The notes beneath the pieces were generated by a model, which was not told the DNA's origin, searched no databases, and saw only the letters and a program-made list of their open reading frames with translations. This document shows, in pieces, positions 151-37,727 of a DNA stretch of 42,350 nt. The translations under genes and the position numbers were made by a program. Source of the stretch: an uncultured Bacteroidales bacterium (GTDB lineage Bacteria; Bacteroidota; Bacteroidia; Bacteroidales; Bacteroidaceae); assembly GCA_902802265.1 (NCBI GenBank), contig CADCLN010000026.1:1-42350 (forward strand), in the 5' to 3' direction. Every line of letters starts with the position of its first letter. Position 1 is the first letter of the stretch.

Positions 151-287
151 GTTAAAGGGACGATACTATTGTCCGCTGCCAGCATCCCATTCGTCCCTTT
201 AACTTCCAAGCGAAACGATAACTTCCTTTTAACTTCCCTTTAACTTCCAAACAAAGCATAACTTCCCTTTTAACTTCCAAGCGAAGC
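151..287. repeat. Word-array palindrome, family A (copy 1)
   Basis: The left part reads GTTAAAGGGACGATACTATT and is answered by ATTCGTCCCTTTAACTTCC, so the outer 10-15 nt pair around a centre containing CGCTGCCAGCATCCC. To the right the word AACTTCC(C)TTTT recurs four to five times, with short AAGCGAAG / AAACAAAGC interruptions. A second copy with the same centre lies at 22081-22227. The rest of 104-354 holds nothing else I can support. Function unknown. A long imperfect hairpin could form in RNA. Confidence 0.8.
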
Positions 288-354
288 CCCCATGCGGAAC
301 AACTCGCTATTTCCGGTCGATATAAGGAGCGAAAATAAAAAACACAGCCAAAAG

Positions 355-386
355 TTTGCCCAAAAGGTTTTTTTTTACTTATTTTG
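355..386 (+). promoter_or_regulatory. Probable Bacteroidota promoter of the glycolipid operon
   Basis: A TTTG (355-358) is followed after exactly 20 bp by TTATTTTG (379-386), one mismatch from the TAnnTTTG -7 box. The ATG of the first operon gene is at 408, so the leader would be only about 15 nt. This is inferred from consensus alone. Confidence 0.5.
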
Positions 387-407
387 CACGGAAAATGAAC
401 GTTCATC

Positions 408-1535
408 ATGGCTTATCCCGTATTACCAACCTCGGAAGCGTGCTGTGGATGTGGCGCCTGTAGTCAGGTCTGCCGCTGGGATTGCATCTCGATGGAGAGG
501 GACAAGGAGGGTTTTCTCTACCCGAAAGTGCATACGGAAGTGTGCAAGGAGTGCGGACTGTGCATGAGGGTGTGCCCGTCGTTGAAGAAGGAAACTGCAA
601 AACCGCACAATGGCACGCCTCTCCATGCTTTCGCTGCCATCAACCCCGATGAATGTGTGCGCAGAGAGAGCAGTTCGGGCGGTGTGTTCACGTTGCTGGC
701 AGAACAGATGGCGGAGAAGGGAGGCGTGGTGTTTGGTGCTGCGTTTGACAAGGACTGGAATGTGGTACACACTCGGACAGACAGCAAAGAGGGGCTGAGG
801 GCGTTTCGTGGCAGCAAGTATGTGCAGAGCGAAACGGGGCAGACGTTCCGCGAGGCGAAGGAACTGCTGGAGGCTGGCAGGGAGGTGCTGTTTGTCGGTA
901 CACCTTGTCAGATTATGGGTCTTCGGGGGTTTCTGGGGAAGCCTTACGAGGGGTTGCTGGCGGTGGACTTCATCTGCCATGGTGTGCCCAGCCCTGCGGT
1001 GTGGCAGTGGTATCTGAAGCGTCAGGCTCGGCATTATGCCAAGGAGCACTGGACGGCGTGGCTGCGATATTGGCTGAGGCCGCTGTCACTGATTCGGAGG
1101 GTGGAGTTTCGCAACAAGGAGAAGGGCTGGAAGCAGTATCATTTCGTGTTGAGGGTTTCGCAGGCACGTCAGGACATGGTCTATCACAAGAATCCCTATA
1201 TGCGTGCTTTCCTGAAGGATGTGGATTTGCGTCCGTCATGTCACCATTGTTTTGCAAAGGGTGGAAGCAGCGGCAGCGACATCACGCTGGCTGATTTCTG
1301 GAATGTGCACAGGGTGGTGGACGGTTTTGACGATGACGGCGGCACAAGTTTGGTGCTGGTGAACACGGAGAGGGGTGCCAGGGTCTTCGATGCACTGGAA
1401 TGCAGGAAGCAGGAGGTGGTTTTCCAGGATGCGATACAGTATAACAGGGCGTGGGCGGCGTCTTACCCTGCCAACCCCGACCGCTGTACGTTCTTTGAGG
1501 AGTACAGGAATTGTTTTGACAGTTTTATTACATGA
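408..1535 (+). CDS. Coenzyme F420 hydrogenase/dehydrogenase beta-subunit family iron-sulfur protein
   Basis: This is a 375-residue cytoplasmic protein with two 4Fe-4S motifs at the N-terminus: C12, C15, C18, C22 and C46, C49, C52, C56-Pro. They are followed by an FrhB-type region with the typical RESSSGGVFTLLAE stretch (about 85-98), VGTPCQIMGLR near 164 and DFICHGVPSP near 187. In non-methanogens this family is repeatedly found in exopolysaccharide clusters beside pyruvyl transferases, as here. Its exact redox role there is not settled, and F420 use should not be assumed. The stop overlaps the next start by 4 bp (ATGA at 1532), so the two are probably translationally coupled. The start at 408 is the first in-frame ATG after the promoter. 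The sense strand is G-rich, unlike the later genes of the operon. Confidence 0.85.
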   Translation: MAYPVLPTSEACCGCGACSQVCRWDCISMERDKEGFLYPKVHTEVCKECGLCMRVCPSLKKETAKPHNGTPLHAFAAINPDECVRRESSSGGVFTLLAEQMAEKGGVVFGAAFDKDWNVVHTRTDSKEGLRAFRGSKYVQSETGQTFREAKELLEAGREVLFVGTPCQIMGLRGFLGKPYEGLLAVDFICHGVPSPAVWQWYLKRQARHYAKEHWTAWLRYWLRPLSLIRRVEFRNKEKGWKQYHFVLRVSQARQDMVYHKNPYMRAFLKDVDLRPSCHHCFAKGGSSGSDITLADFWNVHRVVDGFDDDGGTSLVLVNTERGARVFDALECRKQEVVFQDAIQYNRAWAASYPANPDRCTFFEEYRNCFDSFIT

Positions 1536-2719
1536 GAATTGCTATAACAACGTTTTTTCAGTCGCAGACCAACTATGGGCAGTTGCTGCAGGCGTATGCG
1601 CTGCAGGTGGTGCTGAAGCGGATGGGACACTATCCCTACACCATTCGGTATGGGTTTCATGAGTATTTGCAGCCTGTACACGGCGAGATGGTGGAGATTC
1701 CGTCGGCGGTGCCTGTGCCGCCGCATACGTTGAAAGAGAGGTTGAAGGCTTTTCTGAAGGAACGGTTTGGACGGCCAGAGAGTGGCGAACCGCTCCCTGC
1801 GGGAACCAGGGAGGACAGGCATTTCGATGATTTTCGCCGCATGCACGTAAACTTGTCGCAGTACGTCTATAATTGTGTGGAGGATTTGCAGAAATACCCG
1901 CCCCTGGCAGATTGCTACCTGACGGGGAGCGACCAGGTGTGGGCGCAGCTGTTGTCGAACCCGAACAACCGGACATTCTTCCTAGATTTTGGTTTTCCTG
2001 ACACGAAGCGGATTGCATACGCTCCGAGTTTTGCGGTGGAAAAATACCCTGCGGAACTTTGCGAAGAGTTGCAGGCACAGCTGAAGCGTTTCGATGCCAT
2101 CAGCGTGAGGGAGCCGTCGGGGGTGGAGATTTGCAGGAAGGTGGGCTATGATGCCAAGCTGGTGCTTGACCCCACATTGCTGCTCGGCGGCTGGCACTAC
2201 AGGTGGTTAGCCAGGGAATCGGAGACGGCATTGCCTCGACGGTTCATGCTGGTGTATCATGTGAACGTTACCGACGCGGAGGATTTGCACTGGAAGATGT
2301 TCAGCAAATATAATCGGCAGAAGGGCCTTCGCAACATCGCTGTACATGCCAACGGAGAGGGGGAAAAGGATATTGAGATACTGAAGGATGCGGAGTACTG
2401 GTACCCCACCATTCAGGACTGGATTCGGCTGATTGCCGCGAGCCGCTATGTGCTTACGACATCGTTCCACGGCTTGATTTTCTCCATCTTGCTGCACAAG
2501 CCCTTCTTTGTCTGCCTCAGACCCGACAGCCAGTTTGCAGGGAACAATCGGGTGATAAACGTCCTTTCGGTGTTGGGACTGGAGGACAGAATCGTAACGG
2601 ATGATACTGACATCCGGAAGATGCTGAGAAAACCTATCAACTGGTGGGCTATAGACAGGAAACTGAAGGTGTTGCGGAGGGAATCTTTGCGGTATCTGAC
2701 CAATAGTCTTTGGAAATGA
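1532..2719 (+). CDS. Polysaccharide pyruvyl transferase family protein
   Basis: This 395-residue protein resembles CsaB/WcaK-type enzymes, which transfer a pyruvate ketal from phosphoenolpyruvate onto a sugar of a surface polymer. Family hallmarks seen: the N-terminal TFFQSQTNYGQLLQAYAL (family FxNYGxxLQ), YLTGSDQVWAQ near 130, FLDFGFPDTKRIAYAPSFA near 150, the SVREPSGVEIC segment with AKLVLDPTLLL near 210, and the C-terminal TTSFHGLIFSILLHKPFF near 310, where the FHG histidine is the conserved catalytic-region residue. It overlaps the preceding iron-sulfur gene by 4 bp, which matches the recurrent pairing of these families. A 152-bp gap filled with repeats separates it from the next gene. 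Acceptor sugar unknown. Confidence 0.88.
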   Translation: MRIAITTFFQSQTNYGQLLQAYALQVVLKRMGHYPYTIRYGFHEYLQPVHGEMVEIPSAVPVPPHTLKERLKAFLKERFGRPESGEPLPAGTREDRHFDDFRRMHVNLSQYVYNCVEDLQKYPPLADCYLTGSDQVWAQLLSNPNNRTFFLDFGFPDTKRIAYAPSFAVEKYPAELCEELQAQLKRFDAISVREPSGVEICRKVGYDAKLVLDPTLLLGGWHYRWLARESETALPRRFMLVYHVNVTDAEDLHWKMFSKYNRQKGLRNIAVHANGEGEKDIEILKDAEYWYPTIQDWIRLIAASRYVLTTSFHGLIFSILLHKPFFVCLRPDSQFAGNNRVINVLSVLGLEDRIVTDDTDIRKMLRKPINWWAIDRKLKVLRRESLRYLTNSLWK

Positions 2720-2721
2720 AT

Positions 2722-2838
2722 CTATTTACTATTTACTATTTACCATTTTGGCTGCGCATGGGGTGAAGAAGAAATCTGTGAAATCCGTGGTAAAGAAAAA
2801 TCTGTGTAATCTGAAAAATCCGTGTAATCTGTGGTGAA
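2722..2838. repeat. Compound repeat: half family C array plus family F words
   Basis: Positions 2722-2763 carry the family C words TTTACTA/TTTACCA followed by the centre GGCTGCGCATGG, which is also the centre of the 37.6-kb copy, but the reverse-complement arm is missing. From about 2771 to 2838 the words change to AATCTGTG / AATCCGTG (family F), five or six times. The element fills the gap between the pyruvyl transferase and the glycosyltransferase genes. No other feature is visible in the gap. Confidence 0.75.
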
Positions 2839-2871
2839 GAATGAACAAAAAATAAAACATATCAAAACGAC

Positions 2872-4902
2872 ATGAAGATTTCAATTATTACCGTTGTATA
2901 TAATGACTTGGAGGGACTGAAAAAGACCGTTCAGTCGGTGTTGTCACAAACTGACAAACATTTTGAATACATCGTCATTGATGGAGGTTCGACGGATGGA
3001 ACTAAGGAGTATCTGTCGGCCTTAGACATTGTGAACAAAAAGGTCAGCGAACCCGACAAAGGCATTTACAACGCCATGAACAAGGCCGTCGGGATGGCCG
3101 AAGGGGAGTTTTGCATCTTCATGAATGCTGGCGACAAGTTTCACGACGACGAGGTCATTGCCAAAGCAAACGAGTGTCTGGGTGATGCCGATTTGTATGT
3201 GGGCCACACGGTGGAAGTGGGTGCAGAGAAGTCGCAATGCTTCACAGCTCCTCAGACCATGACGATTGAGCATCTGCTGAAAACGTCCATTTACCATCAA
3301 TCGACGTTCACCAAAACACGGTTGCTGAAGGCACACCCCTACAACGAGCATTACCGCATCGTCAGCGACTGGGCTTTCTTCTTTGAGCAATGGCTGCGCG
3401 GAGCTATATATCAACCGCTTGATTTCTTTGTGTCCTACTATTACCTGGGTGGCTACAGCGCACAGAATGTCGAGACGATAGAGGTGGAGCGCAAGGATGT
3501 CATTTGCAAACTTTTGCCCATACGCGTACAGGAGAGATTTGTGAATGCTGAAAAACGAAAAGCGAAAGACGAAAAACAGGAAAGCAGGATAGAGCGAAAG
3601 ATTAGGAAGTCTATGGAAAAGTCTCCCGTCTCTCGCGACCTTTCGCTGATTCGCTATGGTACTAAGTTCCTGTTCAAGGACCTTTTCCACCAGGAAGCAA
3701 AGCCTCATAAACGGGAGAGGGAGGCATCCGACTGCATCCGTGTACTGTTCGACAGCCAGGCTTTTGACATGCAAACTCACGGCGGTGTGTCTCGCTGCTT
3801 TACAGAACTTTCCACCCATCTGCCAGTAGACATCAAGGCACAGATGGGTGTGGTTGAAACGGATAACACATACCTCAACAACATCGGTTTCCCTCCAGCA
3901 GGACAGACTTATGAACGATTCATGATGCCTGGGCACAACAGCCTCAAGAAGTTCTGTTATAAGCTGAAATATAATTTCAAATATGGTTATTACAGCAAGT
4001 GGGACATTAAGCCGAACCTGAATCGGTATGAGACCATCAGACTGCTCTCGGAAGGCAACGTGGATGTGTTCCACCCCACGTTCTTCTCACCTTATTTCCT
4101 CCCTTATCTGCAGGATACGCCGTTTGTGCTAACTGTTCACGACATGATTACGGAGTTGTACCCGCAGTATTATCCTGCCGACGAACCACAGCTGAACAAC
4201 AAGCGGGTGCTGATTCCCCGTGCAAACCACATTGTCGCCGTGAGCCAAAACACGAAGCGAGACATCATGCGCTTCTTCGATGTGCCCGAAGAGAAAATCA
4301 CCGTGATCTACCATGGTGCAGACACCCCCCCCTACACACCGACTCCCGATGCCAACAAGTACGGCGAATATATTCTCTATGTAGGTGAAAGACATTGGTA
4401 TAAGAATTTCAACCAGTTTCTCCACGATATTGTCCCCATCCTGAACAGGCACAAGGATATGAAAGTGGTATGCACAGGTAAACCATTCAGTTACGAAGAA
4501 AAGATATTGCTGGACTTCCTTTCCCTGACCGACCGTTTCGTGCAAATCTATGTCAAGTCTGACCAAGACTTCATGGACCTGTACCACAATGCCATTTGCT
4601 TTGTCTATCCATCGGAATATGAAGGGTTTGGAATCCCCATTCTGGAAGCATACAAGGCTGATTGTCCGGTGATGCTGAACCATGCCTCTTGCTTTCCAGA
4701 AATTGCAGGCGATGCTGCCGTCTATTTCCACATGAAGGATGGCAAGTCTGACTTTGAAGAGCAGTTCGAGACGCTCTACCACCTCAACAGCAATGAGCGG
4801 GAAGCCTTGCTACAGAAGCAGCGGGAACGTCTGACACTCTATACGTGGGAGAAGTCTGCCCAGCAATTAGCAGAAGTGTATAAAAAACTGATGAAAAATT
4901 GA
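2872..4902 (+). CDS. Two-domain glycosyltransferase, GT2 fused to GT4
   Basis: The 676-residue protein is two enzymes in one chain. Residues 1 to about 225 are a GT2 (GT-A fold) domain: KISIITVVYNDLEGLKKTV, IDGGSTDGTKEYL, EPDKGIYNAMNKAV, then NAGD in the DxD position. Residues about 225-285 are a charged, probably helical linker rich in Lys, Glu and Arg. Residues about 285-676 are a GT4 (GT-B) domain: DSQAFDMQTHGGVSRCF, VLTVHDMITELYP, YVGERHWYKNF, and the nucleotide-sugar motif SEYEGFGIPILEAYKA with its paired glutamates. The protein is cytoplasmic or peripheral. It probably adds two consecutive sugars to one acceptor. The stop overlaps the next gene's start. The GT2 half resembles the separate GT2 at 36687-37484 (shared VVTINYNN/VVTVVYND, DGGS, GIYNA(L/M)NK patterns). 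Confidence 0.9.
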   Translation: MKISIITVVYNDLEGLKKTVQSVLSQTDKHFEYIVIDGGSTDGTKEYLSALDIVNKKVSEPDKGIYNAMNKAVGMAEGEFCIFMNAGDKFHDDEVIAKANECLGDADLYVGHTVEVGAEKSQCFTAPQTMTIEHLLKTSIYHQSTFTKTRLLKAHPYNEHYRIVSDWAFFFEQWLRGAIYQPLDFFVSYYYLGGYSAQNVETIEVERKDVICKLLPIRVQERFVNAEKRKAKDEKQESRIERKIRKSMEKSPVSRDLSLIRYGTKFLFKDLFHQEAKPHKREREASDCIRVLFDSQAFDMQTHGGVSRCFTELSTHLPVDIKAQMGVVETDNTYLNNIGFPPAGQTYERFMMPGHNSLKKFCYKLKYNFKYGYYSKWDIKPNLNRYETIRLLSEGNVDVFHPTFFSPYFLPYLQDTPFVLTVHDMITELYPQYYPADEPQLNNKRVLIPRANHIVAVSQNTKRDIMRFFDVPEEKITVIYHGADTPPYTPTPDANKYGEYILYVGERHWYKNFNQFLHDIVPILNRHKDMKVVCTGKPFSYEEKILLDFLSLTDRFVQIYVKSDQDFMDLYHNAICFVYPSEYEGFGIPILEAYKADCPVMLNHASCFPEIAGDAAVYFHMKDGKSDFEEQFETLYHLNSNEREALLQKQRERLTLYTWEKSAQQLAEVYKKLMKN

Positions 4903-6875
4903 AAAGATTGATTCACATACAAAGAGGGGCATACAGCAATGCTGTGGCGTTGGTGTGCAACCTGCTGCTGGTCTATGCTGTCTATGCCCTGTGCCGCCTG
5001 GAGTTTGTGCTGGAAAACTGGCAGACATTTCAAGGTACCCTGTTCCAGAACAGCTGGACGGACTTGCTAAAGGGAAGCCTGCTGTTCGACACCTCGGCCA
5101 TTCTCTACACCAATGCCCTCTATGCCCTGCTGATGCTGCTACCGGCACCATGGGCTGAAAGCAATGTCTGGCGAAGGATAGCCAAGTGGATATTCCTGAT
5201 AGTCAATTCGGTCTGTGTGACTGCAAACCTTGCCGATTCGGTCTATTTCCAATATACAGGACGACGCACCACCATGTCGGTATTCAGCGAATTCCACCAC
5301 GAAAACAATCTGGGCAGCATTTTCCTGACAGAGTTTCTGCGCCACTGGTATTTGGTGCTGTTTGCCATCCTTTTGTGGATGATGATTTACCTGCTCTACA
5401 GCCATCCTCAGAGCAAAACCCGACGCTTTGGCTGGCGACGACACACAGCCTACTACCTCATCACCACCACTTGTCTTTTTTTCTATATTCCTCTGACCAT
5501 CTGCGGAATGCGTGGCGGAGCAACCACCGCTGTGCGACCGATAACCCTCAGCAATGCAAACCAGTATGTAAACCATCCCACCGAGGCGGCAGTCGTGCTG
5601 AATACACCTTTCTCCTTGATTCGTACCCTCAACAAGACAACCTTTGTGAACCCCGAATATTTCTCGAAAGAAGAACTGGCTGCACTCTATTCCCCCGTTC
5701 ACACCACAGCTGCCACCGATTCATTGACCAAGAAAAACGTCGTGGTGCTCATTGTGGAAAGTTTTGGCCGTGAATACATTGGAGCCTATAACGAACTGAG
5801 CGAAGACAAGGGCTATACACCTTTCATCGACTCCCTCTATCCCCACTGCCTCAGCTTCGACTACACTTTTGCCAACGGACGTAAAAGTATCGACGGAATG
5901 CCTTCCATCCTCAGCAGCATCCCTATGTTTGTCGAGCCTTTCTTCCTCACACCAGCTTCCTTGAACGATGTCAGCGGGCTGGCTGGTGAATTGGGGAAAG
6001 TGGGCTATCAATCAGCCTTTTTCCACGGTGCCGAAAACGGTTCAATGGGCTTTTTGGCTTTTGCCCGAACCACAGGTTTTCAGCATTACTACGGTCGCAC
6101 AGAGTACAATGCCGACCCCCGATTCGGCGGTGACAAGGATTTCGACGGCATGTGGGCAATATGGGACGAACCCTTCCTGCAATTCTATGCCTTGAAAATG
6201 AACGAAATGCAAGAACCTTTCATCACGGCCCTTTTTACGGCTTCTTCACACCACCCCTATGCCGTACCTTCTATATATAAAGATGTGTACCCCGACGAAG
6301 ACCCCAACCCCATCCATAAGTGCATACGCTACACCGACATGGCGTTGAGAAAGTTTTTCGACACAGCACGACAGCAACCATGGTACGAAAATACAATCTT
6401 CGTCCTGACCAGCGACCACACCAACTGGAGCGACCACGCTGAATATCAGACCGACTTGGGACTTTTCGGTGCACCTATCCTTTTCTTCGACCCTTCCGGC
6501 ACACTGCCAGCTGGTCGCCGCCACTGCATCGCTCAGCAAATCGACATCATGCCGACAGTGCTCAGCTATTTGGGCTACCCTAAACCTTACATTGCCTTTG
6601 GCTCAGACCTGATTACCACAGCCGACTCCGCTACTTGGGCTGTCAACTACCTGAACGGCATCTACCAATATGTCTCTGGTGACTACGTCCTGCAATTCGA
6701 CGGCGAAAAATCCACGGCTCTCTACGACATCAAGTCCGATTGGCTCATGCAGCACAACTTGCTGAAAAACTCACCGTCGGAAACCACAGCAATAGCCATG
6801 GAACGCCGTCTAAAAGCCATCATCCAGAGTTATATGTCTCGTATGAACAACAACCAACTTGAAATAGCAAAATAA
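4899..6875 (+). CDS. LTA-synthase-like membrane phosphotransferase (sulfatase/alkaline phosphatase superfamily)
   Basis: 658 residues starting at a TTG that overlaps the preceding stop by 4 bp (TTGA), which leaves little room for another start. About five membrane segments occupy residues 1-200 (for example 9-28, 90-110, 140-162, 178-200). An extracytoplasmic sulfatase-fold domain fills about 285-630. Metal and catalytic motifs seen: VVVLIVESFGREYIG (Glu ligand), ANGRKSIDGMPSI (Ser/Thr nucleophile region), TSDHTNWSDH (Asp-His ligands), and the SSHHPYAVP substrate-side loop. Relatives move phosphoglycerol or phosphoethanolamine from phospholipid to an envelope glycan or lipid. With pyruvyl transferase, acyltransferase and glycosyltransferases around it, head-group decoration of an exported glycolipid is the best inference. 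Whether the donor is phosphatidylethanolamine or phosphatidylglycerol cannot be read here. Confidence 0.88.
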   Translation: MKRLIHIQRGAYSNAVALVCNLLLVYAVYALCRLEFVLENWQTFQGTLFQNSWTDLLKGSLLFDTSAILYTNALYALLMLLPAPWAESNVWRRIAKWIFLIVNSVCVTANLADSVYFQYTGRRTTMSVFSEFHHENNLGSIFLTEFLRHWYLVLFAILLWMMIYLLYSHPQSKTRRFGWRRHTAYYLITTTCLFFYIPLTICGMRGGATTAVRPITLSNANQYVNHPTEAAVVLNTPFSLIRTLNKTTFVNPEYFSKEELAALYSPVHTTAATDSLTKKNVVVLIVESFGREYIGAYNELSEDKGYTPFIDSLYPHCLSFDYTFANGRKSIDGMPSILSSIPMFVEPFFLTPASLNDVSGLAGELGKVGYQSAFFHGAENGSMGFLAFARTTGFQHYYGRTEYNADPRFGGDKDFDGMWAIWDEPFLQFYALKMNEMQEPFITALFTASSHHPYAVPSIYKDVYPDEDPNPIHKCIRYTDMALRKFFDTARQQPWYENTIFVLTSDHTNWSDHAEYQTDLGLFGAPILFFDPSGTLPAGRRHCIAQQIDIMPTVLSYLGYPKPYIAFGSDLITTADSATWAVNYLNGIYQYVSGDYVLQFDGEKSTALYDIKSDWLMQHNLLKNSPSETTAIAMERRLKAIIQSYMSRMNNNQLEIAK

Positions 6876-6895
6876 CGTCATAACCCTCCTGCAAT

Positions 6896-22054: not shown

Positions 22055-22080
22055 CTCAACTTTTGCAAGCCAAAGTCCTA

Positions 22081-22227
22081 AGGGAATTGAAAGGAATAGA
22101 AGAGGAGTTAAAGGGAAGTTAAAGGGACGATACCATTGCCCTGCCGCCAGCATAACATTCGTCCCTTTAACTTCCAAGCAAAGCGATAAGTTCCTTTTAA
22201 CTTCCCTTTAACTTCCAAGCGAAGTTG
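22081..22227. repeat. Word-array palindrome, family A (copy 2)
   Basis: Left arm: AGTTAAAGGGAAGTTAAAGG. The centre ACGATACCATTG...CAGCATAACATTCGT closely matches copy 1 at 151-287. Right arm: CCCTTTAACTTCC words with AAGCAAAGCG and AAGCGAAG interruptions. It lies inside the cobalamin operon. The rest of the gap to 22351 contains a small hairpin (CCACCC / GGGTGG near 22305-22327) and a TTGTTTGC that might be a weak promoter, and nothing else. Confidence 0.8.
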
Positions 22228-22351
22228 AATCAAATAAGTTTGTCATAACCATAAACCCTTTTTTATTAATATCATTTATTTGTTGTTTGCACTCAGCCAC
22301 TCCCACCCTCCCCTGGGTGGGGTGGCGGTGCGTTTTAAAATTTCATTTTTC

Positions 22352-23209: not shown

Positions 23210-23353
23210 AAGACCCCCTCTAACTCCCCCTTTAGGGGGGAGGATATTTACCATGTACCATGTACCATTTACTATTTACCATTTACCATTTACTATTTAC
23301 CATCTGCCATCTCCTTTCTCCCCCTAGAGGGGGAGTTAGAGGGGGTCTCCTCT
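23210..23353. repeat. Word-array palindrome, family C, with C-rich outer arms
   Basis: The outer left arm AGACCCCCTCTAACTCCCCC (from about 23212) is the reverse complement of the outer right arm GGGGGAGTTAGAGGGGGTCT (to about 23351). Each also forms a local CCCCCTTTAGGGGG-type hairpin. Between them lies an array of TTTACCA/TTTACTA words and CATGTAC variants (about 23246-23300). The right half is translated as the start of the BtuF-like protein. The left hairpin could terminate transcripts of the DUF4465 gene. Confidence 0.8.
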
Positions 23354-25556: not shown

Positions 25557-25622
25557 TCTCTTCAAAACTTAGCACTTGTCTCTTCGAAACACGGCTGTTG
25601 TCTCTTCGAAACTTAACTGCTG
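25557..25622. repeat. Three tandem 22-bp units between convergent genes
   Basis: Units begin at 25557, 25579 and 25601. Each starts TCTCTTC(A/G)AAAC and ends in a CTTG/GTTG/GCTG-like sequence. The units are 22 bp with no spacers between them. Nothing else is recognisable in 25518-25656. Function unknown. Confidence 0.7.
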
Positions 25623-26670: not shown

Positions 26671-26683
26671 TGTATAAAAATTA

Positions 26684-26770
26684 AATCCGAAATCCGAGTT
26701 CCGAATTACGAGTTCCGACATCCGAAAAGCTTTGCGGAGTGCTTCTTGTAATTCGGATTTCGGATTTCGG
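26684..26770. repeat. Word-array palindrome, family B (copy 1)
   Basis: AAATCCGAAATCCGAGTTCC words (from 26684) are answered by GTAATTCGGATTTCGGATTT (to 26770). The centre AAAAGCTTTGCGGAGTGCTT shares TGCGGAGTG with copy 2 at 31027-31136. It fills the gap between the two esterase genes. Confidence 0.85.
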
Positions 26771-28445: not shown

Positions 28446-28545
28446 TTTTAGAAACAAATCCCCATAATAGACCTTAATTCCCATAATAAGCAAGCTGGCT
28501 TCTTCGAGAAAATTATGGATAATTATGGGGATTCATTTCTAAACA
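28446..28545. repeat. Word-array palindrome, family E
   Basis: TTTTTAGAAACAAATCCCCA with CCCATAAT words (28446-28488) is answered by ATTATGGATAATTATGGGGA and TTCATTTCTAAA (to about 28543). The centre is AGCAAGCTGGCTTCTTCGAG. It may form a long hairpin and act as a terminator or processing site between the amidohydrolase and the carboxylesterase. The flanks (28367-28445, 28546-28579) show nothing else. Confidence 0.75.
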
Positions 28546-30244: not shown

Positions 30245-30286
30245 TACGCAAAAATAATATTTTAGTTACTAATTACCAGTATGGCT

Positions 30287-30330
30287 TAAATCCGTAAACC
30301 TTTAGCTCGACGAAGTCAAATCCGTTGTCG
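30287..30330. repeat. Decayed family B repeat fragment
   Basis: AAATCCG, ACCTTTAGCTCGACGAAG and CAAATCCG correspond, in reverse complement, to the right half of the family B copy at 31027-31136, which has GGATTTGGCTACGCCGAGCT. It lies in the leader of the amidohydrolase gene. Confidence 0.6.
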
Positions 30331-30356
30331 TTAAATAAATTCTGTATTTTGAGCGG

Positions 30357-30399: not shown

Positions 30400-30445
30400 T
30401 TTTTTTCAAGCCAAGGCCGAGAATGACCGTCGGATTTTTCTTAGT

Positions 30446-30673: not shown

Positions 30674-30676
30674 GGG

Positions 30677-30856
30677 TCAGAATACCAGATGTGGAAACTG
30701 TTTCTTCTCCTCGTCAGTCAGTATGTGCACCCAGCTGGCTGCCCACATGCCTACGAGGTCATCTACAAGTTGACGGCGTGTCAGTCCGTTCTTCTTCAGG
30801 AGCAGTTCGAGTACGCCCTTGCGCTCCTGTTCGATTAGTTTGTCTCTTTCGCTCAT
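30677..30856 (-). CDS. Small 59-residue protein upstream of the PIN gene (possible antitoxin)
   Basis: Runs from ATG 30856 to TGA 30677: MSERDKLIEQERKGVLELLL, KKNGLTRRQLVDDLVGMWAA, then SWVHILTDEEKKQFPHLVF. It is mostly helical, with a charged first half and a TRRQLVDDL segment that could be a short DNA-binding or partner-binding helix. The stop is 3 bp before the truncated PIN gene, so they are likely cotranscribed. I do not recognise a named family. The antitoxin call rests on size and position only. Confidence 0.5.
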   Translation of the reverse strand: MSERDKLIEQERKGVLELLLKKNGLTRRQLVDDLVGMWAASWVHILTDEEKKQFPHLVF

Positions 30857-30983
30857 ATCTTTTGATGTTTAGAGGATTTCCGCTGCAAAGGCATTGTTTT
30901 TTTCTGAATCCGCTGCAACCGCGCGGGAAAATCTACAAGAATTAACGGAATATGGGCCAAGCCTGCTTTTTTATGTTGTCTGT

Positions 30984-31015
30984 TTTGAGGGTTGTGCTTT
31001 TTTTTCGTACCTTTG
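30984..31015 (+). promoter_or_regulatory. Promoter of the ABC exporter gene
   Basis: TTTG (30984-30987), exactly 20 bp, then TACCTTTG (31008-31015). Both boxes match the Bacteroidota consensus. Transcription would start near 31022, so the family B repeat is entirely within the 5' leader. Confidence 0.7.
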
Positions 31016-31026
31016 CAGCCGGAAGT

Positions 31027-31136
31027 TAAATCCGAAATCCGAATTACGAATTACGAAATGCCATGCGGAGTGTTTTCGTTGCTCACAACTCGGATTTGGC
31101 TACGCCGAGCTAAAGGTTCGTAATTCGGATTTCGTC
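31027..31136. repeat. Word-array palindrome, family B (copy 2), in the exporter leader
   Basis: AAATCCGAAATCCGAATTAC words are answered by GTTCGTAATTCGGATTTCG. The inner part carries TGCGGAGTG (as copy 1) and a second small palindrome GGCTACGCCGAGC. It ends about 22 nt before the exporter start codon. Confidence 0.85.
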
Positions 31137-31158
31137 ATTCAAAAATGGTTGAATCGAT

Positions 31159-32994
31159 ATGTTGAAACAATTTCTTTCTATCATGGCTCGCTACCTGAAG
31201 CCATATCGCAAGTATCTGGCGTGGTCGGTCGTGCTGAATTTCTTGTCGCAGTGGATGAATGTGTTTTCGTTCATGGTGTTGATTCCTATCCTGAATATCT
31301 TGTTCAAGATAGACAAGGAGATTTACGAATATCAGCCTGTGGACTGGCATCATCTGAACAAGGATGTTATCATCAATAATGCGTATGCCTGGATTCAGGA
31401 ACTGATTTCGGTGCACGGCGCTTTTCTCACGTTGGTCATCATGGGGTTGGCACTTATCGTGATGACGGGGTTGAAGACGCTGGGCTATTTTGCTTCCTCG
31501 GCGGTGATGGTTCCGCTGCGCACAGGCATTGTGCGTGACATCCGCATCGAGGTGTACGAAAAAGTGCTGAAATTGCCGCTGAGTTTCTTTTCGGAGGAAC
31601 GCAAGGGTGACATCATTGCCCGCATGAGTGCCGACGTGCAGATGGTGGAGGGGTCCATCACAAGCAGTATTGATATGCTGATTCGGCAGCCCATCGCCAT
31701 TTTGGTGTGTTTCTTCACGCTGTTCAGTGTGAGTTGGCAGCTGACGGTATTTGTCATTGTGGTGGCTCCTGTGGCTGGATGGATCATGGGCATTGTGAGC
31801 CGTAAGCTGAAGAGCCAGTCGTCGGCTGTGCAGGGACAGTGGGGCGACATCATTGCTCAGCTGGACGAAACGCTGGGCGGATTGCGCATCATCAAGGCGT
31901 TCATTGCAGAGCACAAGATGTTGCGGCGGTTCGTCTATGTGAACGATGAGTTTCGCAAGGGTATGAACGAGATGATTATCCGTCAGAATGCAGCGCACCC
32001 CATGTCGGAGTTTCTGGGCACCATCATCATCGTGATCGTGTTGTGGTTTGGCGGTTTCCTCATCCTGAATGAGTCGGACCTGATCGATGCTTCCACGTTT
32101 ATTTTCTATATGGTCATCCTGTACAGTGTCATCAATCCGCTGAAGGAGTTGTCGAAGGCGACGTATCAGATTCCGCTGGGCTTGGCCTCAATGGATCGTA
32201 TCGACTTTATCCTGAAGGCCGAGAATCCTATCAAGGAACCTGAACACCCAGAACCGTTGCCACGGTTTGAGCAGATGATTGAGCTGCGCGACGTGAGCTT
32301 CAGTTATGTGGAAGGCAGGGAGGTGCTGAAGCATATCAACCTGACGGTGCCGAAGGGGAAAACGATTGCACTGGTAGGTCAGTCGGGGTCTGGAAAAAGT
32401 ACGCTGGTGGACTTGATTCCGCGTTACCACGATGTGAAGCAGGGTGAGGTGCTGATTGACGGAAAGAATATCAAGTGTTTCGGCATTTCTGATTTGCGTG
32501 GCTTGATTGGCAATGTGAACCAGGAAGCCATTCTGTTTAACGACACATTTTATAATAATATCACTTTCGGTGTGGAGAATGCCACGATGGAACAAGTCAT
32601 CGAGGCTGCGAAGATTGCCAATGCGCATGAGTTTATCATGGAGAGCGAGCATGGCTACGACACGATGATAGGTGACCGTGGCGGCAGGCTTTCGGGTGGG
32701 CAGCGGCAACGCATCAGCATTGCCCGTGCCATTTTGAAGAATCCGCCCATCTTGATTCTGGACGAAGCCACATCGGCTCTCGACACAGAGAGTGAACGAC
32801 TGGTGCAGGAAGCGTTGGAGCGGCTGATGCGGTCGAGAACGACCATTGCCATTGCGCACCGTCTGAGTACCATCAAGAATGCTGACGAGATTTGTGTGCT
32901 CTACGAAGGTGAAATCGTGGAGCGTGGTCAGCATGAAGAGTTAATCGAAAAGAATGGTTATTATAAGCGGTTGTACGACATGCAGCAGCTCTAA
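31159..32994 (+). CDS. MsbA-like ABC exporter (fused membrane and ATPase domains)
   Basis: 611 residues. Six membrane helices fill about 1-330 (for example YLAWSVVLNFLSQWMNVFSFMVLIPIL, FLTLVIMGLALIVMTGL and the pair LTVFVIVVAPVAGWIMGIV / ILYSVINPLKELS). The ATPase domain from about 360 has Walker A GQSGSGKST (407-415), Q-loop VNQEAILF, signature LSGGQRQR (511-518), Walker B ILILDEATSALD (532 onward) and the H-loop IAHRLST. The layout is that of lipid-linked exporters such as MsbA, or generic multidrug exporters. Glycolipid export fits the neighbouring clusters. A single complete transporter half, working as a homodimer. The transcript leader contains a family B palindrome. Convergent with the GT cluster downstream. 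Confidence 0.9.
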   Translation: MLKQFLSIMARYLKPYRKYLAWSVVLNFLSQWMNVFSFMVLIPILNILFKIDKEIYEYQPVDWHHLNKDVIINNAYAWIQELISVHGAFLTLVIMGLALIVMTGLKTLGYFASSAVMVPLRTGIVRDIRIEVYEKVLKLPLSFFSEERKGDIIARMSADVQMVEGSITSSIDMLIRQPIAILVCFFTLFSVSWQLTVFVIVVAPVAGWIMGIVSRKLKSQSSAVQGQWGDIIAQLDETLGGLRIIKAFIAEHKMLRRFVYVNDEFRKGMNEMIIRQNAAHPMSEFLGTIIIVIVLWFGGFLILNESDLIDASTFIFYMVILYSVINPLKELSKATYQIPLGLASMDRIDFILKAENPIKEPEHPEPLPRFEQMIELRDVSFSYVEGREVLKHINLTVPKGKTIALVGQSGSGKSTLVDLIPRYHDVKQGEVLIDGKNIKCFGISDLRGLIGNVNQEAILFNDTFYNNITFGVENATMEQVIEAAKIANAHEFIMESEHGYDTMIGDRGGRLSGGQRQRISIARAILKNPPILILDEATSALDTESERLVQEALERLMRSRTTIAIAHRLSTIKNADEICVLYEGEIVERGQHEELIEKNGYYKRLYDMQQL

Positions 32995-32996
32995 TA

Positions 32997-33258
32997 CCAC
33001 AGATTACACAGATTTTTCATATTACACAGATTTTCATGTCTTTAATCAACAAGTTCCTGCGGAACGATGAAACGGATGAAACGGATTTTATTGAGACAGG
33101 TGTTGATTGGTCCAAGTCCGTTCAATCCGTTTAATCATCGCAAAGCGATATGTTTTTTGCACAACAAGTTCCTGCGGAACGATTAAACGGATGAAATGGA
33201 TTTTGGGGGACTAAAAATCTAATCTGTGTAATCTGAAAAATCTGTGTAATCTGTGGTT
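32997..33258. repeat. Nested palindrome of families F and D between convergent genes
   Basis: The outer arms are family F: ACCACAGATTACACAGATTT (32997 onward) and its complement AATCTGTGTAATCTGTGGTT (to 33258). Inside lies family D: AAGTTCCTGCGGAACGAT twice (33051 and 33166), each followed by GAAACGGATG/TAAACGGATG words, and between them the opposite orientation CCGTTCAATCCGTTTAATC with ATCGCAAAGCGAT. The right F arm is partly coding for the minus-strand gene ending at 33219. Confidence 0.8.
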
Positions 33259-34100
33259 GTCCAGGGTGCATCGAGTTGAGGCAGCCGCACCTCGAAGGGT
33301 TGAAAGTCGAGGGGATCGGAGGGTTCGTGGCTATGCATCCAGCAGAGTTTTGCCTTGCCGTACATGGAGGCGACAAGGGTAAAACTGCTGAGAGGACCTA
33401 TGAGGTAGTCGCAGAGAGAGAGCAGGCAGAGGTCTTCGCCTGGATTCCCCGAGGGGAAGCAGAGGTTGTAACCCTGCAGTGCGGTTCGGAAAAGGTTTTG
33501 GTCAAGGGGGATGTTGCTGCAAAAGTACAGCGTACAAGTGTCATTCCCCAATTGACGGAGTGCCTGACGAATGTAGGCAAGGTATTCTTCATCCGTAAAG
33601 TAATATTTCCCGCCGCACCATGTCTGGTAGTCGCCACGCCGGATATGGATGCCGATTTTAAGGTGCTGCGACGATGCCGTTTCTTCCAGATATTTTTGTA
33701 TTTTCCGACGGATGGCAGGCTTAAATTCAAATAGTTTCCTGATGTCGTCAAAGTATTTGAGGAAGAGGTCGAAGTGGCGAACACTCCAGCCTTCCACCAT
33801 GACGTTTCGGTGGGCAAGGATGCGTGCCTCGTTTTCAGGTTTACGCGCGGTCGAACCTTCGTAGGTGACAGTAGGGATGACCCCCCACTGTGCCAGGAAT
33901 TTGCCAGCCAAGTAGTAGAGGATGTTGTGATGGGGTGTGGTGCAGATGTGGAAGTATTGGTATTTATAGGCAAAGCGCATCGACACAGTGTGGCGATGGT
34001 GTTCTTTGGCCCAGGCATAGACATGGGCATACTGCAGGATGTTGTTACACATCTGTCCTTTATCTCGTACAAATATCATATTTATCAATGCCGTTTTCAC
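33219..34100 (-). CDS. GT11-like (alpha-1,2-fucosyltransferase-type) glycosyltransferase
   Basis: 293 residues if begun at the GTG at 34100, or 286 from the ATG at 34079 (MIFVRDKGQMCNNILQYAH). Both overlap the preceding gene, by 41 or 20 bp. Motifs: N-terminal GQMCNNILQYAHVYAWAKE in place of the GGLGNQMFQYA of classical GT11, the donor-binding LKIGIHIRRGDY (HxRRxDY motif I of alpha-1,2/1,6-fucosyltransferases), YFCSNIPLDQNLF, and CDYLIGPLSSFTLVASMYG. Fucose transfer is likely but not certain, since the N-terminal motif deviates. The last ~13 residues (TTTDYTDFSDYTD) are encoded by the family F repeat, so the original stop was probably lost when the repeat arrived. It is the last of four cotranscribed glycosyltransferase genes. 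Confidence 0.78.
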   Translation of the reverse strand: MKTALINMIFVRDKGQMCNNILQYAHVYAWAKEHHRHTVSMRFAYKYQYFHICTTPHHNILYYLAGKFLAQWGVIPTVTYEGSTARKPENEARILAHRNVMVEGWSVRHFDLFLKYFDDIRKLFEFKPAIRRKIQKYLEETASSQHLKIGIHIRRGDYQTWCGGKYYFTDEEYLAYIRQALRQLGNDTCTLYFCSNIPLDQNLFRTALQGYNLCFPSGNPGEDLCLLSLCDYLIGPLSSFTLVASMYGKAKLCWMHSHEPSDPLDFQPFEVRLPQLDAPWTTTDYTDFSDYTD

Positions 34101-35760
34101 ACCATTTCACTTTCCCCTCGATGATTTTCCGGATAGCCTTCAGGTGGGTATCCTCATTGCTGCGTGATGCTTCGGGGTGCCACAAATGGTAGAGCACACC
34201 ACCCATCTTCAGGGCTTTCTTCTGCACGCCGGCAAAGTGCATACGGTAGATGAGTTCGCTGTCTTCGTGTCCCCATTGCAGCAGGTCTTCATTGTATCCG
34301 TTCACCCTGAGAAAGTCGGACAACCAGAAGGCCATGTTGCAACCACGCATGTGGTCAATCTTGCGTGCATAGCGCAAAGCCAGATAGTGACGGAGGGGTT
34401 TGTTGCGGAATTGGTTGAGCAGGAAAGAAAGCTTCAGTCCCCGATGGCTTAACAGAAATTTCCCCGAAGCAAGGATTTTCTCCGTCTGGGCTTTCCCCAC
34501 CTTGGTGCGGCTGCCACAAACGTAGTATCCAGGCTCCATCAGTTCGAGGTGGTCGGCGATGAAGTGTTTCTCCAGCACCACGTCGCCGTCAATCTGGATG
34601 ATATATTCACCCTGTGCCTGGGCAAGTGCCTTGTTGAGAATGACCGTTCTGCGGAATCCCTCGTCGGGATGCCAAACGTGACGGATGTTCAGTTCGGGGT
34701 AGCGGCCTTGCAACTGCAGGATGAGCTGCCGCGTTTCGTCGCCCGATCCGTCGTCGGCAATGATGACTTCGCAGGGCAGAACCGTTTGCTGGCTGGCAGA
34801 CTCAATGCAGAGTTTGAGGGCTTTGGGCCAATTGTAAGTGGAAACCAGCAGGGTGATGTCGGTACGGCTGTCGGAAAACAAGTCGGGTTCTTTATAGGTG
34901 AGCTTATGGATAAAGCTCTGCCTGGCTGCCTGTTCCAGCAACAGCGGAGAATACTTTCTGCCACGGCGAAGGGCATAGAACAGATAGTGCATCGGAGCAT
35001 CGTCGTCCGTCAGATGAAGCTGTTCAACGGCTTCACGGAAGGCTTTATCCTTGCGAAGCAGGGCAATGAAGATGAAGTGGAATGTGAAGTAGTGGATAAT
35101 CGTTCCCTCGCCCTGCCAATAGCGTTCCAGCGTCTGGCAGAGTTTATGGGTGACGGGATGATGGGCATCGGACTTGATGAAACAACTCTGGATGTAAGTG
35201 CAGGCAAATTCTCCCTGTGAACGGTAGCAGAAGAAAGGTGCATCGAGAATGGCTTGGGGGATGGAAGCCGTGAGCAGACAGGTGGCATCCACCCACACAC
35301 CGCCATACTGGTCGAGCAGCCACACCCGCAGAATGTCGGAAAAGTGGATGGTCGAAATCAAGTTCTTCTGCTTGGCCTCCCAGATAAACGACGGCAATTC
35401 CACGTAGTCCTTGCAAGTCTCCTCCGTCAGCACAATGTGGGTATAACCCGCAGGCAGATGGTCATCCACAGACTGGATGCTTCGCCTGACTATCTCAGGA
35501 CACCCGTCCAAACCTTGCGACCAAAACTGCCAGATGACTTTCCGAGCCGCTTCCGCCTGCACGGGGTTTTCGTCAGGCTGAACGACGCAATATTGCTCCA
35601 GATACTGGATGCACCGATTGGGATTAAAAGGGTGCAGGCGTTCCCTGATGCGGTGACGCAAATCCTTGTCCCAGAAAACCAGCATGGAGGTGATATTGAT
35701 AAAAAACTTGCAGATTTTCAGCAAGAAATTACGGATGTACCGATGATTCATTTTTTTCAT
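34060..35760 (-). CDS. Two-domain glycosyltransferase: Caps_synth/GT32-like fused to GT2
   Basis: 566 residues. The N-terminal half (about 70-270) resembles capsular polysaccharide synthesis proteins/GT32: VIWQFWSQGLDGCPEIVRRSIQSVD, HIVLTEETCKDYVELP, ISTIHFSDILRVWLLDQYGG and the DxD-type VWVDATCLL. The C-terminal half (about 300-560) is a GT2 of chondroitin-synthase type: ITLLVSTYNWPKALKLCIES, VIIADDGSGDETRQLI, HPDEGFRRTVILNKALA, QIDGDVVLEKHF (DxD), RGCNMAFWLSDFLRVNGYNEDL and WGHEDSELIYRMHFAG. It overlaps the GT14 gene by 4 bp and the GT11-like gene downstream. Two successive sugar additions by one chain are likely. N-terminal hydrophobic segment around 12-30 could tether it to the membrane. 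Confidence 0.87.
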   Translation of the reverse strand: MKKMNHRYIRNFLLKICKFFINITSMLVFWDKDLRHRIRERLHPFNPNRCIQYLEQYCVVQPDENPVQAEAARKVIWQFWSQGLDGCPEIVRRSIQSVDDHLPAGYTHIVLTEETCKDYVELPSFIWEAKQKNLISTIHFSDILRVWLLDQYGGVWVDATCLLTASIPQAILDAPFFCYRSQGEFACTYIQSCFIKSDAHHPVTHKLCQTLERYWQGEGTIIHYFTFHFIFIALLRKDKAFREAVEQLHLTDDDAPMHYLFYALRRGRKYSPLLLEQAARQSFIHKLTYKEPDLFSDSRTDITLLVSTYNWPKALKLCIESASQQTVLPCEVIIADDGSGDETRQLILQLQGRYPELNIRHVWHPDEGFRRTVILNKALAQAQGEYIIQIDGDVVLEKHFIADHLELMEPGYYVCGSRTKVGKAQTEKILASGKFLLSHRGLKLSFLLNQFRNKPLRHYLALRYARKIDHMRGCNMAFWLSDFLRVNGYNEDLLQWGHEDSELIYRMHFAGVQKKALKMGGVLYHLWHPEASRSNEDTHLKAIRKIIEGKVKWCENGIDKYDICTR

Positions 35761-36674
35761 TCCGCAGATAGGCTTTGCATGAAGAAGGAAAGGAGGGCAT
35801 CGTCCGACCCGTCGATTTTGCGAACAAAAAACTTGTCAGAACCTCTCAATTCCTCTATGTCGTCATGTGTGAAGGTATAAGGAGCACCACGAGTCCAGTC
35901 TATCAAACGCATATTGCAGCCATAGACATCGTTCTCGCCCGTATGCCCCGTACACTCGTCGTATTTATAAATATTATTCCTGAAGGGAGAATTCCAGATA
36001 ATGGACTGCAGAAACAATTCGTCGGCACAATACGTGTGGCGAAAAGCCCTGCGCACAAAGTCGCGTTGCCCCACCAGATACTGCACAAACCCATGAGTGA
36101 CCGACACCCAGTTGGGTCCCATCCGCAGTTCCGGCAAACCGCCAATGCGCCGCCGCAGCCCCAGCCGCTTACCCATTGACAACAGGTTTCGCTGCAACAT
36201 CCGCTCCAGGTTCTGCCCCAAAGAACGATGGTCCAGCTGATTATAGTTGTGGAAGTAATGTCTCCGCAACCGCTTCCGTATGATGCCCGACGTGTCGGGT
36301 TGCTTCCAGAACTCCACAAACTCTTTCCCTTGATGGTTTTGGAAGAAAGCATGAATCTCGTCCTGCGACTTCAGCGGCAAATCAACGCCCGACAGCAAAT
36401 GATAGTAAGCATAAGAAGCCGTCTGCGCCGCCGTTTCAAACAAACGCATCTCTGCCTCAATTTGCGAATCCTCTCCCCACCATATCTTCATGGCGGGCAA
36501 TACATACAGCCCGCTCCGTTCAGCCTTCACTTCCCCGAAAAGCTTCTCGTCGGCCTTCTTGTCAATCAGCAGGAAGATGTCGTTGCGCTCGTCATCAATA
36601 AGACGAACCAACAACTGCAACAACCTGGGCTGATTGTGAGAAATGATGCAATATGCATGACGGGCAGAAACCAT
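35757..36674 (-). CDS. GT14-family beta-1,6-N-acetylglucosaminyltransferase-like protein
   Basis: 305 residues. Core-2/I-branching (GT14) motifs: HAYCIISHNQPRLLQLLVRLID at the N-terminus, DIFLLIDKKAD, IWWGEDSQIEAEMRLFETA, the family hallmark YYHLLSGVDLPLKSQDEIHAFF, GKEFVEFWKQP, MGPNWVSVTHGFVQYLVGQ, YCADELFLQSIIWNSPF and DWTRGAPYTFTHDDIEEL. GT14 enzymes are metal-independent and make beta-1,6 branches. Bacterial members occur in capsule and LPS clusters. It starts 12 bp after the GT2 gene and overlaps the bifunctional GT gene by 4 bp, so it is inside the operon. Complete. Confidence 0.88.
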   Translation of the reverse strand: MVSARHAYCIISHNQPRLLQLLVRLIDDERNDIFLLIDKKADEKLFGEVKAERSGLYVLPAMKIWWGEDSQIEAEMRLFETAAQTASYAYYHLLSGVDLPLKSQDEIHAFFQNHQGKEFVEFWKQPDTSGIIRKRLRRHYFHNYNQLDHRSLGQNLERMLQRNLLSMGKRLGLRRRIGGLPELRMGPNWVSVTHGFVQYLVGQRDFVRRAFRHTYCADELFLQSIIWNSPFRNNIYKYDECTGHTGENDVYGCNMRLIDWTRGAPYTFTHDDIEELRGSDKFFVRKIDGSDDALLSFFMQSLSAE

Positions 36675-36686
36675 ACTCTCTCTTTT

Positions 36687-37484
36687 TTACCATTTATGCA
36701 ACCACGTAATCACGTGCAGCAACGACCGAATCCATCGCCGATAACACCCACGCTCCGCACAATAATCCCGCGTCAGGATGCAAGGCTTGTTGTCAAACGT
36801 ATAAAGCTCATCCAATGCTTCCAGATACACAGCCGGAATCAGTTCCCCGAAAAACTGCCGCCGCTCCTCCTCCATTCGTTCCTGCGAACAAGAACTGATT
36901 CCCGACATGTCGTAACGGCAAACCACTATCGGAACATAGCGGAAACGCGCCCCCTCCAACTTCAGCTGCACCAGCAGTCGCCAGTCGGCAGCTATGCTGA
37001 AACGCTCGTCAAACCCTCCAAGCCGTTCAAAACAACTACGCCGCACCATCGTTGACTGATGATTCAGCGGGGACTTCCGCAGATACTGCAACGTCAGCCG
37101 CTCCGGATGCCTCCCCACGTCTTCCCTGCCAGGATAGCAGAAACACACATCGCCATAAAGCAAATCGGCATCACCCGCCGACAGCATCCGCTGCAACACA
37201 TCCGCTGCATACAGCCTGTCGCCGGCATTCAGAAAGTAGAGATACTCCCCCTGAGCCAACCGAGCGCCCTTGTTCAGCGCATTATAGATGCCGCCATCCG
37301 CTTCACTCACCACGTGGGCAAACCACTCCCCGTGTTCCTTCAGGTACTCCCTGCTTCCATCCTCGCTGCCACCGTCAATCACAATCCACTCATAATCACG
37401 GAAAGTCTGCCGAAGCATACTTTCTACCGTCAGCTTCAACCCCTGCAGATTATTATAATTGATGGTAACAACCGAAAGTTTCAT
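36687..37484 (-). CDS. GT2 glycosyltransferase (WcaA-like), first gene of the cluster
   Basis: 265 residues from the ATG at 37484 (MKLSVVTINYNNLQGLKLTV). An earlier ATG at 37541 lies upstream of the predicted transcription start and is rejected. One GT2 domain: YEWIVIDGGSEDGSREYL, VVSEADGGIYNALNKGARL, YFLNAGDRLY (NAGD in the DxD position), LNHQSTMVRRSCFERLGGFDE and AADWRLLVQLKLEG. It is close in pattern to the N-terminal half of the fusion protein at 2872-4902. Cytoplasmic. It probably begins the assembly of the glycan built by the three genes downstream. Confidence 0.88.
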   Translation of the reverse strand: MKLSVVTINYNNLQGLKLTVESMLRQTFRDYEWIVIDGGSEDGSREYLKEHGEWFAHVVSEADGGIYNALNKGARLAQGEYLYFLNAGDRLYAADVLQRMLSAGDADLLYGDVCFCYPGREDVGRHPERLTLQYLRKSPLNHQSTMVRRSCFERLGGFDERFSIAADWRLLVQLKLEGARFRYVPIVVCRYDMSGISSCSQERMEEERRQFFGELIPAVYLEALDELYTFDNKPCILTRDYCAERGCYRRWIRSLLHVITWLHKW

Positions 37485-37507
37485 ACCCGAAATCAACATT
37501 TTCGGGG

Positions 37508-37515
37508 CAAAAATA
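37508..37515 (-). promoter_or_regulatory. -7 box of the glycosyltransferase cluster
   Basis: On the minus strand the sequence is TATTTTTG, a perfect TAnnTTTG box, 24 bp before the ATG at 37484. No convincing TTTG lies at the -33 spacing. Confidence 0.5.
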
Positions 37516-37581
37516 CAACAAAAAAACGAAACGCCCACCATATTTCATAAAAAATCATTTACTTTGCAGGCGGAAAAACAA

Positions 37582-37727
37582 TAGACCCCCTCTAGGGGGA
37601 GGACATTTACCATGTACCATGTACCATTTACCATTTGGCTGCGCATGGCCGAAAAATAAATAGTAAATGGTAAATGGTAAATAGTAAATAGTAAATGGTA
37701 AATAGTAAATGGTAAATAGTAAATGAT
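37582..37727. repeat. Word-array palindrome, family C (most complete copy)
   Basis: A short C-rich hairpin (GACCCCCTCTAGGGGGAGGA) leads into TTTACCATGTACCATG and TTTACCATTT words, the centre GGCTGCGCATGGCC (about 37637-37650), then a long array of the complement, TAGTAAATGG, about seven or eight times, to 37727. The start codon of the following gene lies in the last unit. Nothing else is visible in 37516-37581 except a TTACTTTG that might be a weak plus-strand promoter. Confidence 0.9.

Follow-up and report, generated by a model that had tools for sequence, protein, structure and literature searches.

What are the arrays of short words that recur between the genes of this stretch of Bacteroidales DNA, and do they have one origin or several? 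The window, by which we mean the whole 42,350-nucleotide stretch, is contig C26 (CADCLN010000026.1) of a metagenome-assembled genome (MAG) from rumen Prevotellaceae/Bacteroidaceae, of 2.88 Mb in 63 contigs and 85.65% complete. A first-pass annotation described here five or more families of intergenic repeats (A, B, C, E and F/D), said to be unrelated in sequence and to be built alike from an array of 7–11-nt words, a short centre and the reverse complement of the array. The named sequences are all found at the places given. As a whole, the observation is partly confirmed by our analysis and its interpretation partly supported. The repeats are in part one modular set accompanied by a lineage of miniature inverted-repeat transposable elements (MITEs), and not unrelated families. 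We consider it rather probable that they form a superfamily of short hairpin elements (~60–260 nt), non-coding and located between genes, that have spread as non-autonomous mobile repeats. Each would consist of a short centre and two flanking arms of tandem 7–11-nt words.

The plan of array, centre and complementary array is real, but it is present in about a third of arrays. A 436-kb sample of the window genome (the window and 20 further stretches) was surveyed with Tandem Repeats Finder (TRF) for periods of 6–12, using a heuristic coding mask of the longest open frames, which left 35.8 kb of non-coding DNA. The latter contains 70 arrays versus a mean of 1.2 in five shuffles, the commonest periods being 7 (26 arrays), 9 (20) and 11 (9). 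Tandem short words in intergenic DNA are also what characterizes simple tandem heptamer repeats (STRR/LSSR). Another 45 arrays, left unsorted, lie in the 400.5 kb masked as coding. Period 7 leads in most of the other genus genomes surveyed (stretches of 19 genomes, 18 of them with arrays). Among neighbouring arrays 8–130 nt apart, 39 of 101 pairs are complementary, whereas random re-pairing within the same genome, tried 40 times, gave 6.3 on average and never more than 11. Four of the 101 show same-strand likeness. For 23 further arrays a complementary arm exists that TRF missed, versus none with shuffled flanks. A plan common to the families is therefore upheld. Complementarity as a rule is not: 214 of the 313 non-coding arrays in the 19 genomes are one-sided, and dispersal extends to hybrid elements whose arms are not complementary, which recur as a unit at several loci.

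The same mixture is found in the window. Twelve window stretches were each tested for self-complementarity against 100 dinucleotide shuffles. All shuffles (100/100) were exceeded by both copies of family A (A1, A2), two of family B (B1, B2), the full family C element (C3), the family E element, the F/D nest (F2) and a G-rich palindrome around a second set of family C words (C2). No palindrome signal above shuffles was present at a decayed B place (B3; 30280–30335), a family C half element (2722–2765), the C2 words themselves (23246–23310) or a set of family F words (F1; 2771–2836). The plan thus stands at seven of the 11 named places and falls at these four, which are one-sided. Folding of ten window stretches as single-stranded DNA, scored against shuffles, agrees with this test: z is between −4.8 and −6.1 for A2, B1, B2, C3, E and part of F2 (33050–33180), the signal is weaker for A1, and there is none at the C half element, the C2 words and F1.

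The families are not unrelated, since B1 and B2 share TGCGGAGTG, the centres of B2 and of family C share CCATGCG, and a longer core in related genomes joins them. B1 (26683–26770; fold z −6.1) is composed of AATCCGA/AATTACG words, a centre that has only TGCGGAGTG, without CCA (26733–26741), and complementary words. In B2 (31027–31135; z −5.0, beating all shuffles) AATCCGA/AATTACG arms enclose CCATGCGGAGTG (31061–31072); B2 also holds at 31107 the module GGCTACGCCGAGCTAAAGGTT, which is AACCTTTAGCTC on the minus strand. The decayed B3 (30287–30335) has the module AACCTTTAGCTC (30297) beside single AAATCCG words. Family C is represented by a plus-strand half element (2722–2761), located shortly 3' of a stop codon, with TTTACTA/TTTACCA words, the centre GGCTGCGCATGG (2750–2761) and no second arm, and by C3 (37604–37727; z −5.6), in a gap between divergent open frames, in which the same centre (37637–37648) stands between a TTTACCA arm and a TGGTAAA arm. 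The one-sided C2 words (23246–23310) lie within the G-rich palindrome GACCCCCTCTAACTCCCCC (23211–23348; arms 23211–23239 and 23320–23348). The strand is undefined for B1, B2, B3, C2 and C3. The C centre has seven copies in the window genome, and on inspection by eye six of these lie within word arrays or next to them.

The centres were also searched for in a set of 45 genus genomes, the window genome included, which are drafts of ~40 to 380 contigs each. TGCGGAGTG alone was rejected as a marker (32 genome matches versus 13 for the reversed pattern; only three of 30 loci in word arrays by eye). CCATGCGGAGTG has two copies in the window genome and 80 in 29 of the 45 genomes (20 in G014); among 30 loci read, its neighbours are AGTTAAA words in G014, CAGTTGA in G020, AATCCGA in the window genome and G-rich arms in G043. 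As many of these loci are coding-like by eye and the reversed pattern gives 24 matches, it too was rejected as a genus-wide marker and a longer core pattern was needed. A stretch of G027, CCATGCGGAGTGTATGCATCGCGTTAGCC, joins the B2 centre to the centre found in G010, G012, G030 and G031. The core CCATGCGG-N3-26-CGCGTYAGCC, which likewise includes CCATGCG, has 112 copies in 23 of the 45 genomes, with the most in G036 (25) and 12 in G030, versus none for the reversed-pattern control. A stricter form of the pattern has no match in 393 genomes across the order, among which the window genome is the sole member of the genus. Dispersal in many copies is a property of MITEs; conserved ends, another such property, were not found, as in these elements the core is conserved and the arms vary. 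Complementary arms accompany 23 of the 30 core copies fetched (23 genomes) and none after one shuffle each.

At least ten arm words were recognized by eye around the core, including TTTAAAG, AATTGAAG, TATAATG, ATTTACA, AGTTAGG, AATGAAG, AATTGAT, ACGATGT and AACTGTC. A shorter core carries AATCCGA and AGTTAAA words, and AATTGAAG arms also flank a different centre (G010, 65335). Read on the opposite strand, the window C centre is CCATGCGCAGCC and resembles a shortened version of the core, and judging from sequence the B and C elements of the window may belong to the same set, as members with a short core. Another module, AACCTTTAGCTCG, is present in 50 copies in the window genome, where in the sample it adjoins several different words, and occurs in 22 of 301 genomes of the family.

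Family A resembles a MITE, given the inverted ends of related copies and two empty sites with duplications. A2 (22055–22230, the right limit being approximate; plus strand) is MITE-like and contains 11-nt GGGAAGTTAAA words and their complement; it beats all shuffles (fold z −4.8), and its left end CTCAACTTTTGCAAG differs by one mismatch from the end of related elements, CTCAACTTTCGCAAG. A1 (151–287, plus strand) has AACTTCCCTTT-type words, a partial complementary arm and a 13-pair stem, GTTAAAGGGACGA/TCGTCCCTTTAAC. Its palindrome score is 26 (shuffle maximum 20) and its fold z −2.9, with three of 200 shuffles folding as well; no inverted end was recognized in it. An A-type element of 168 nt in G043 is bounded by the terminal inverted repeats CAACTTTCGCAAG and CTTGCGAAAGTTG, and copies in G012 and G010 have the imperfect ends TTTAAGTTTCG/CGAAAGTTGAA. 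The words differ by species: GAAGTTAAA in G043, GGAGTTAAA in G010 and G012, and GGGAAGTTAAA in the window. Two A-type copies of the G012/G010 pair, and not of the window genome, face clean empty sites in the sister and are flanked by target-site duplications, TTATTGAT (8, up to 10 bp, with ambiguous limits) and TANTAAC (7 bp, one mismatch). A third filled copy in this pair is flanked by TCTCTAA, with a sister site that is not clean. In G027 and G030 some core elements lie by eye inside A-type ends; thus, the elements nest.

Sister genomes differ at array sites much more often than at array-free ones. Nine contig pairs from G012/G010, G035/G032, G030/G027 and G033/G023 gave 107 array clusters. 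After removal of 34 for which no orthologous flanks were found, 11 because their flanks were too short or below 85%, and 20 that were reciprocal, 42 sites were left. With an alignment score of 28 as the limit for an alignable array, 17 of the 42 are changed, versus four of 95 array-free intergenic windows (Fisher p 3e-7); the latter, at most 60 nt long, were handled in the same way but in one direction only, 49 and 25 being dropped for the same reasons. Words are kept at 25 sites (six identical, nine different in length and ten with substitutions). The changed sites include seven with different words, four where the element is absent in the sister and six without an alignable array, two of which scored 23 and 25, just below the limit. 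Among the array-free windows 91 align, three do not and one is absent. A core element of ~100 bp in G010 corresponds to 4 nt in G012, between flanks that are 88 and 91% identical.

Presence and absence are also seen in the gap that follows an ABC transporter gene (window 31159–32991; gap read in 20 of 24 genomes), whose closest relatives are in rumen Prevotellaceae/Bacteroidaceae MAGs. This gap holds almost nothing in G035, G032, G033, G023 and G038, AGTGAAA words in G014 and G027, ATTTACA words with the core in G030 and G031, an A-type element in G043 and the F/D nest in the window. In 22 loci of named relatives of the transporter the flanks are by eye mostly unlike those of the window, and these relatives were therefore left out of the orthology comparison. 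Some of them carry other arrays, of units with TTACGAAATTATCTC and of GATTTAGGCACC-type units (upstream of the ABC gene in L070 and downstream in L072).

The elements disperse, as copy number, empty sites and presence/absence between sisters demonstrate. The proposal of a non-autonomous element with an unseen enzyme, one of those made in the first-pass annotation, fits best with the 112 core copies, the A-type inverted ends, the two empty sites with duplications and the comparison of orthologous intergenic regions. Copies would be spread by a transposase, for which no candidate emerged, or by recombination. Arms would lengthen and shorten via slippage, which would explain the unit changes: at a G012/G010 site with 300-nt flanks 100% identical, both arms differ by whole 9-nt units. 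Polymerase template switching in the hairpin may re-copy one arm from the other and flip the centre. According to the accessible parts of two reports on quasipalindromes (PMC8604942, PMC8794818), template switching homogenizes arms and inverts spacers, and thus fits both arm matching and the centres found inverted between sisters, with inverted versus same-orientation scores of 76/10 in G012/G010, 58/9 in G027/G030 (flanks 98%) and 32/10 in G035/G032 (interior changed). It is a mutational process rather than an element family, and leaves dispersal and word exchange unexplained. Occasionally an arm might be replaced by the arm of another element with the same core, copying being our preferred guess. 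Most copies are probably selfish or neutral, and are tolerated because they are located between genes.

More tentatively, the elements can be viewed as a modular kind of mobile hairpin whose centre alone is conserved, with word-array arms that are exchangeable and can be re-matched in place, so that a whole stem changes next to a gene that stays 99% identical. This would invert the logic of insertion sequences, which have conserved ends. The possible example is a pair of neighbouring elements, X and Y, two of the seven sites with changed words, which have TTTAAAG arms in G010 and AATTGAAG arms in G012; the gene between them is identical at 400 of 404 nt, and X has kept its 29-nt centre.

Several results weigh against mobile, word-exchanging hairpins. 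The left flanks of X and Y resemble each other, so that one event followed by conversion between them is possible. No change in the kind of word is seen within any of seven orthologous core-locus groups or at two further G012/G010 core loci; thus, word exchange is the exception. The long-form core is absent from the window genome, which is therefore linked to it through the shared CCATGCG and the joined form in G027. Three presence/absence sites of core elements show no clear target duplication. No autonomous A-type partner was found in the loci examined, and whole genomes were not searched for one. In G043, what lies between two A-type ends is a gene for an acetyl-CoA hydrolase, and a single search expression applied to those loci returned no frame of at least 220 aa between ends 600–2200 bp apart. 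Finally, the sister genomes are drafts, and the one-sided majority of arrays need no mobile element.

The last point leads to the first alternative, that there is no mobility at all and that arrays grow in place by slippage, with fold-back template switching making the complement. One-sided arrays and the observed gains and losses of units agree with it, as does the occurrence of AGTGAAA arrays in 24 of the 395 genomes of a phylum-wide sample, a count for which the reversed control was discarded, being a rotation of the same word and thus giving no test. (A few distant genomes of this sample are rich in these arrays, with 144 overlapping matches in G443 and 62 in G658.) Local mutation does not account for one core in 112 copies, for A-type ends with duplications at empty sites, or for non-complementary hybrid arms found as a unit at several loci, and we regard it as unlikely to be the sole process.

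It is less plausible still that the hairpins are selected terminators, attenuators or mRNA processing/stability elements that were re-invented with different words. They do fold stably, and by eye arrays often begin no more than a few bases from a stop codon, or finish close to a start codon. In the sampled genome, however, arrays are most concentrated in tandem gaps, at 3.05 per kb, compared with 1.66 per kb in convergent gaps and 1.14 in divergent ones. Presence/absence between close sisters and the dispersal of mismatched arms also argue against this explanation, and a search of the window elements and of those at five other loci gave no Rfam family above its gathering threshold. The sole Rfam match in the window is a cobalamin riboswitch (RF00174; 10534–10723, plus strand; 112.5 bits).

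That the repeats are REP/REPIN elements moved by a RAYT (Y1) transposase is very improbable. They too are small intergenic palindromes, and the window genome encodes a Y1 transposase whose gene is flanked by hairpins of its own; yet the core-rich G036 has no Y1_Tnp match and G030 none over the cut-off, while G031 has one and the window genome, with two Y1 genes, lacks the long-form core. The GTAG/CGTC tag was not noticed by eye in the fetched core copies, for which no scan was made. RAYT was accordingly rejected as the mobilizer, and the co-occurring transposase that the annotation had recommended looking for did not emerge. The Y1 gene mentioned (L058; C23, 37777–38118) encodes an IS200-like transposase of ~158 aa with small flanking hairpins, and looks RAYT-like, with REP-like repeats that differ from the word arrays. 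A 22-nt tandem repeat of the window, TCTCTTCGAAACTTAGCACTTG (25557–25615), recurs near position 2175 of this locus, beside the transposase gene. The second Y1_Tnp gene (L059; C31, 1795–2043), in a 328-aa frame, has same-strand TTGCAATG arrays on both sides of its neighbourhood.

Phage carriage was likewise rejected. Viral contigs gave 84 core-pattern stretches; among the 80 read, the long core is present in four, without complementary arms, and one other stretch, which lacks the long core, reaches a borderline arm score of 25. None of 16 viral stretches with AACCTTTAGCTCGRCG is in word arrays by eye, and blastn of one core element against phage gave no match. An assembly artefact of short-read MAGs, conceivable for genomes in such draft state, is scarcely credible given that different assemblies have the same or almost the same elements at orthologous places and that empty sites are clean.

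Comparison with known repeats draws on the accessible parts of the papers cited. The closest printed relative is BrickBuilt, a MITE of Porphyromonas gingivalis that holds a minisatellite (PMC4596501). It is similarly intergenic, from the Bacteroidales, and has tandem repeats within terminal inverted repeats, the repeat number varying by locus; it differs in having one 23-nt repeat family, and that text describes neither two complementary arms around a core nor word exchange. Thus, the design is not wholly without precedent, although the first-pass annotation knew no named family of this kind. TAACTGA arrays of Beggiatoaceae, Cyanobacteria and Bacteroidetes are mostly intergenic tandem heptamers, sporadic and without an evident mechanism, but repeat a single word directly, apart from one inverted set, and show no core or word exchange in the part seen (PMC4679880). 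PINSR, a 188-bp repeat of Prevotella intermedia/nigrescens, is from a related group, lineage-specific, intergenic and probably without protein-coding capacity; it lacks terminal inverted repeats, and its available description mentions no word arrays (PMC4755523). MITECca01 of Cardinium is a short non-autonomous element of Bacteroidota, but with a known IS982-family parent and, in the text at hand, no word arrays (PMC9769881). The REP/REPIN-RAYT elements, also small, dispersed and intergenic, are tagged palindromes of 20–40 bp tied to a Y1 transposase (PMC3733652, PMC3116915, PMC8266576), whereas in the elements described here there is no such tie and the tag was not noticed. A palindromic word-armed element with a conserved core is not described in the titles and opening lines of abstracts listed from the literature searched, which excluded most subscription journals and all preprints.

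Bacterial heptamer arrays and intergenic palindromes have long been without a mechanism. With a core, exchangeable arms, empty sites and centre inversions in close genomes, the birth, spread and rewriting of repeats would become datable and testable. Some intergenic regions of these Bacteroidales would then change far faster than the adjoining genes, which matters for the annotation of promoters, terminators and small RNAs.

The remaining window elements belong to families E and F/D. The E element (28447–28543, strand undefined; window copy only) has imperfect 33-nt arms that are 82% complementary, with CCCATAAT/ATTATGG words (fold z −5.7). The one-sided F1 words (2771–2835, plus strand) are AATCTGTGT and AATCCGTG. 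The F/D nest (32996–33257, strand undefined; z −5.4 for 33050–33180) has the outer arms ACCACAGATT... and AATCTGTG..., inner words AAACGGATG/CATCCGTTT, and contains the small hairpins GTTCCTGCGGAAC and ATCGCAAAGCGAT. Repeats of another kind are found at 39551–41988, where there are three pairs of direct duplications of ~270–300 nt, 84–91% identical; parts of this region match many contigs of G014.

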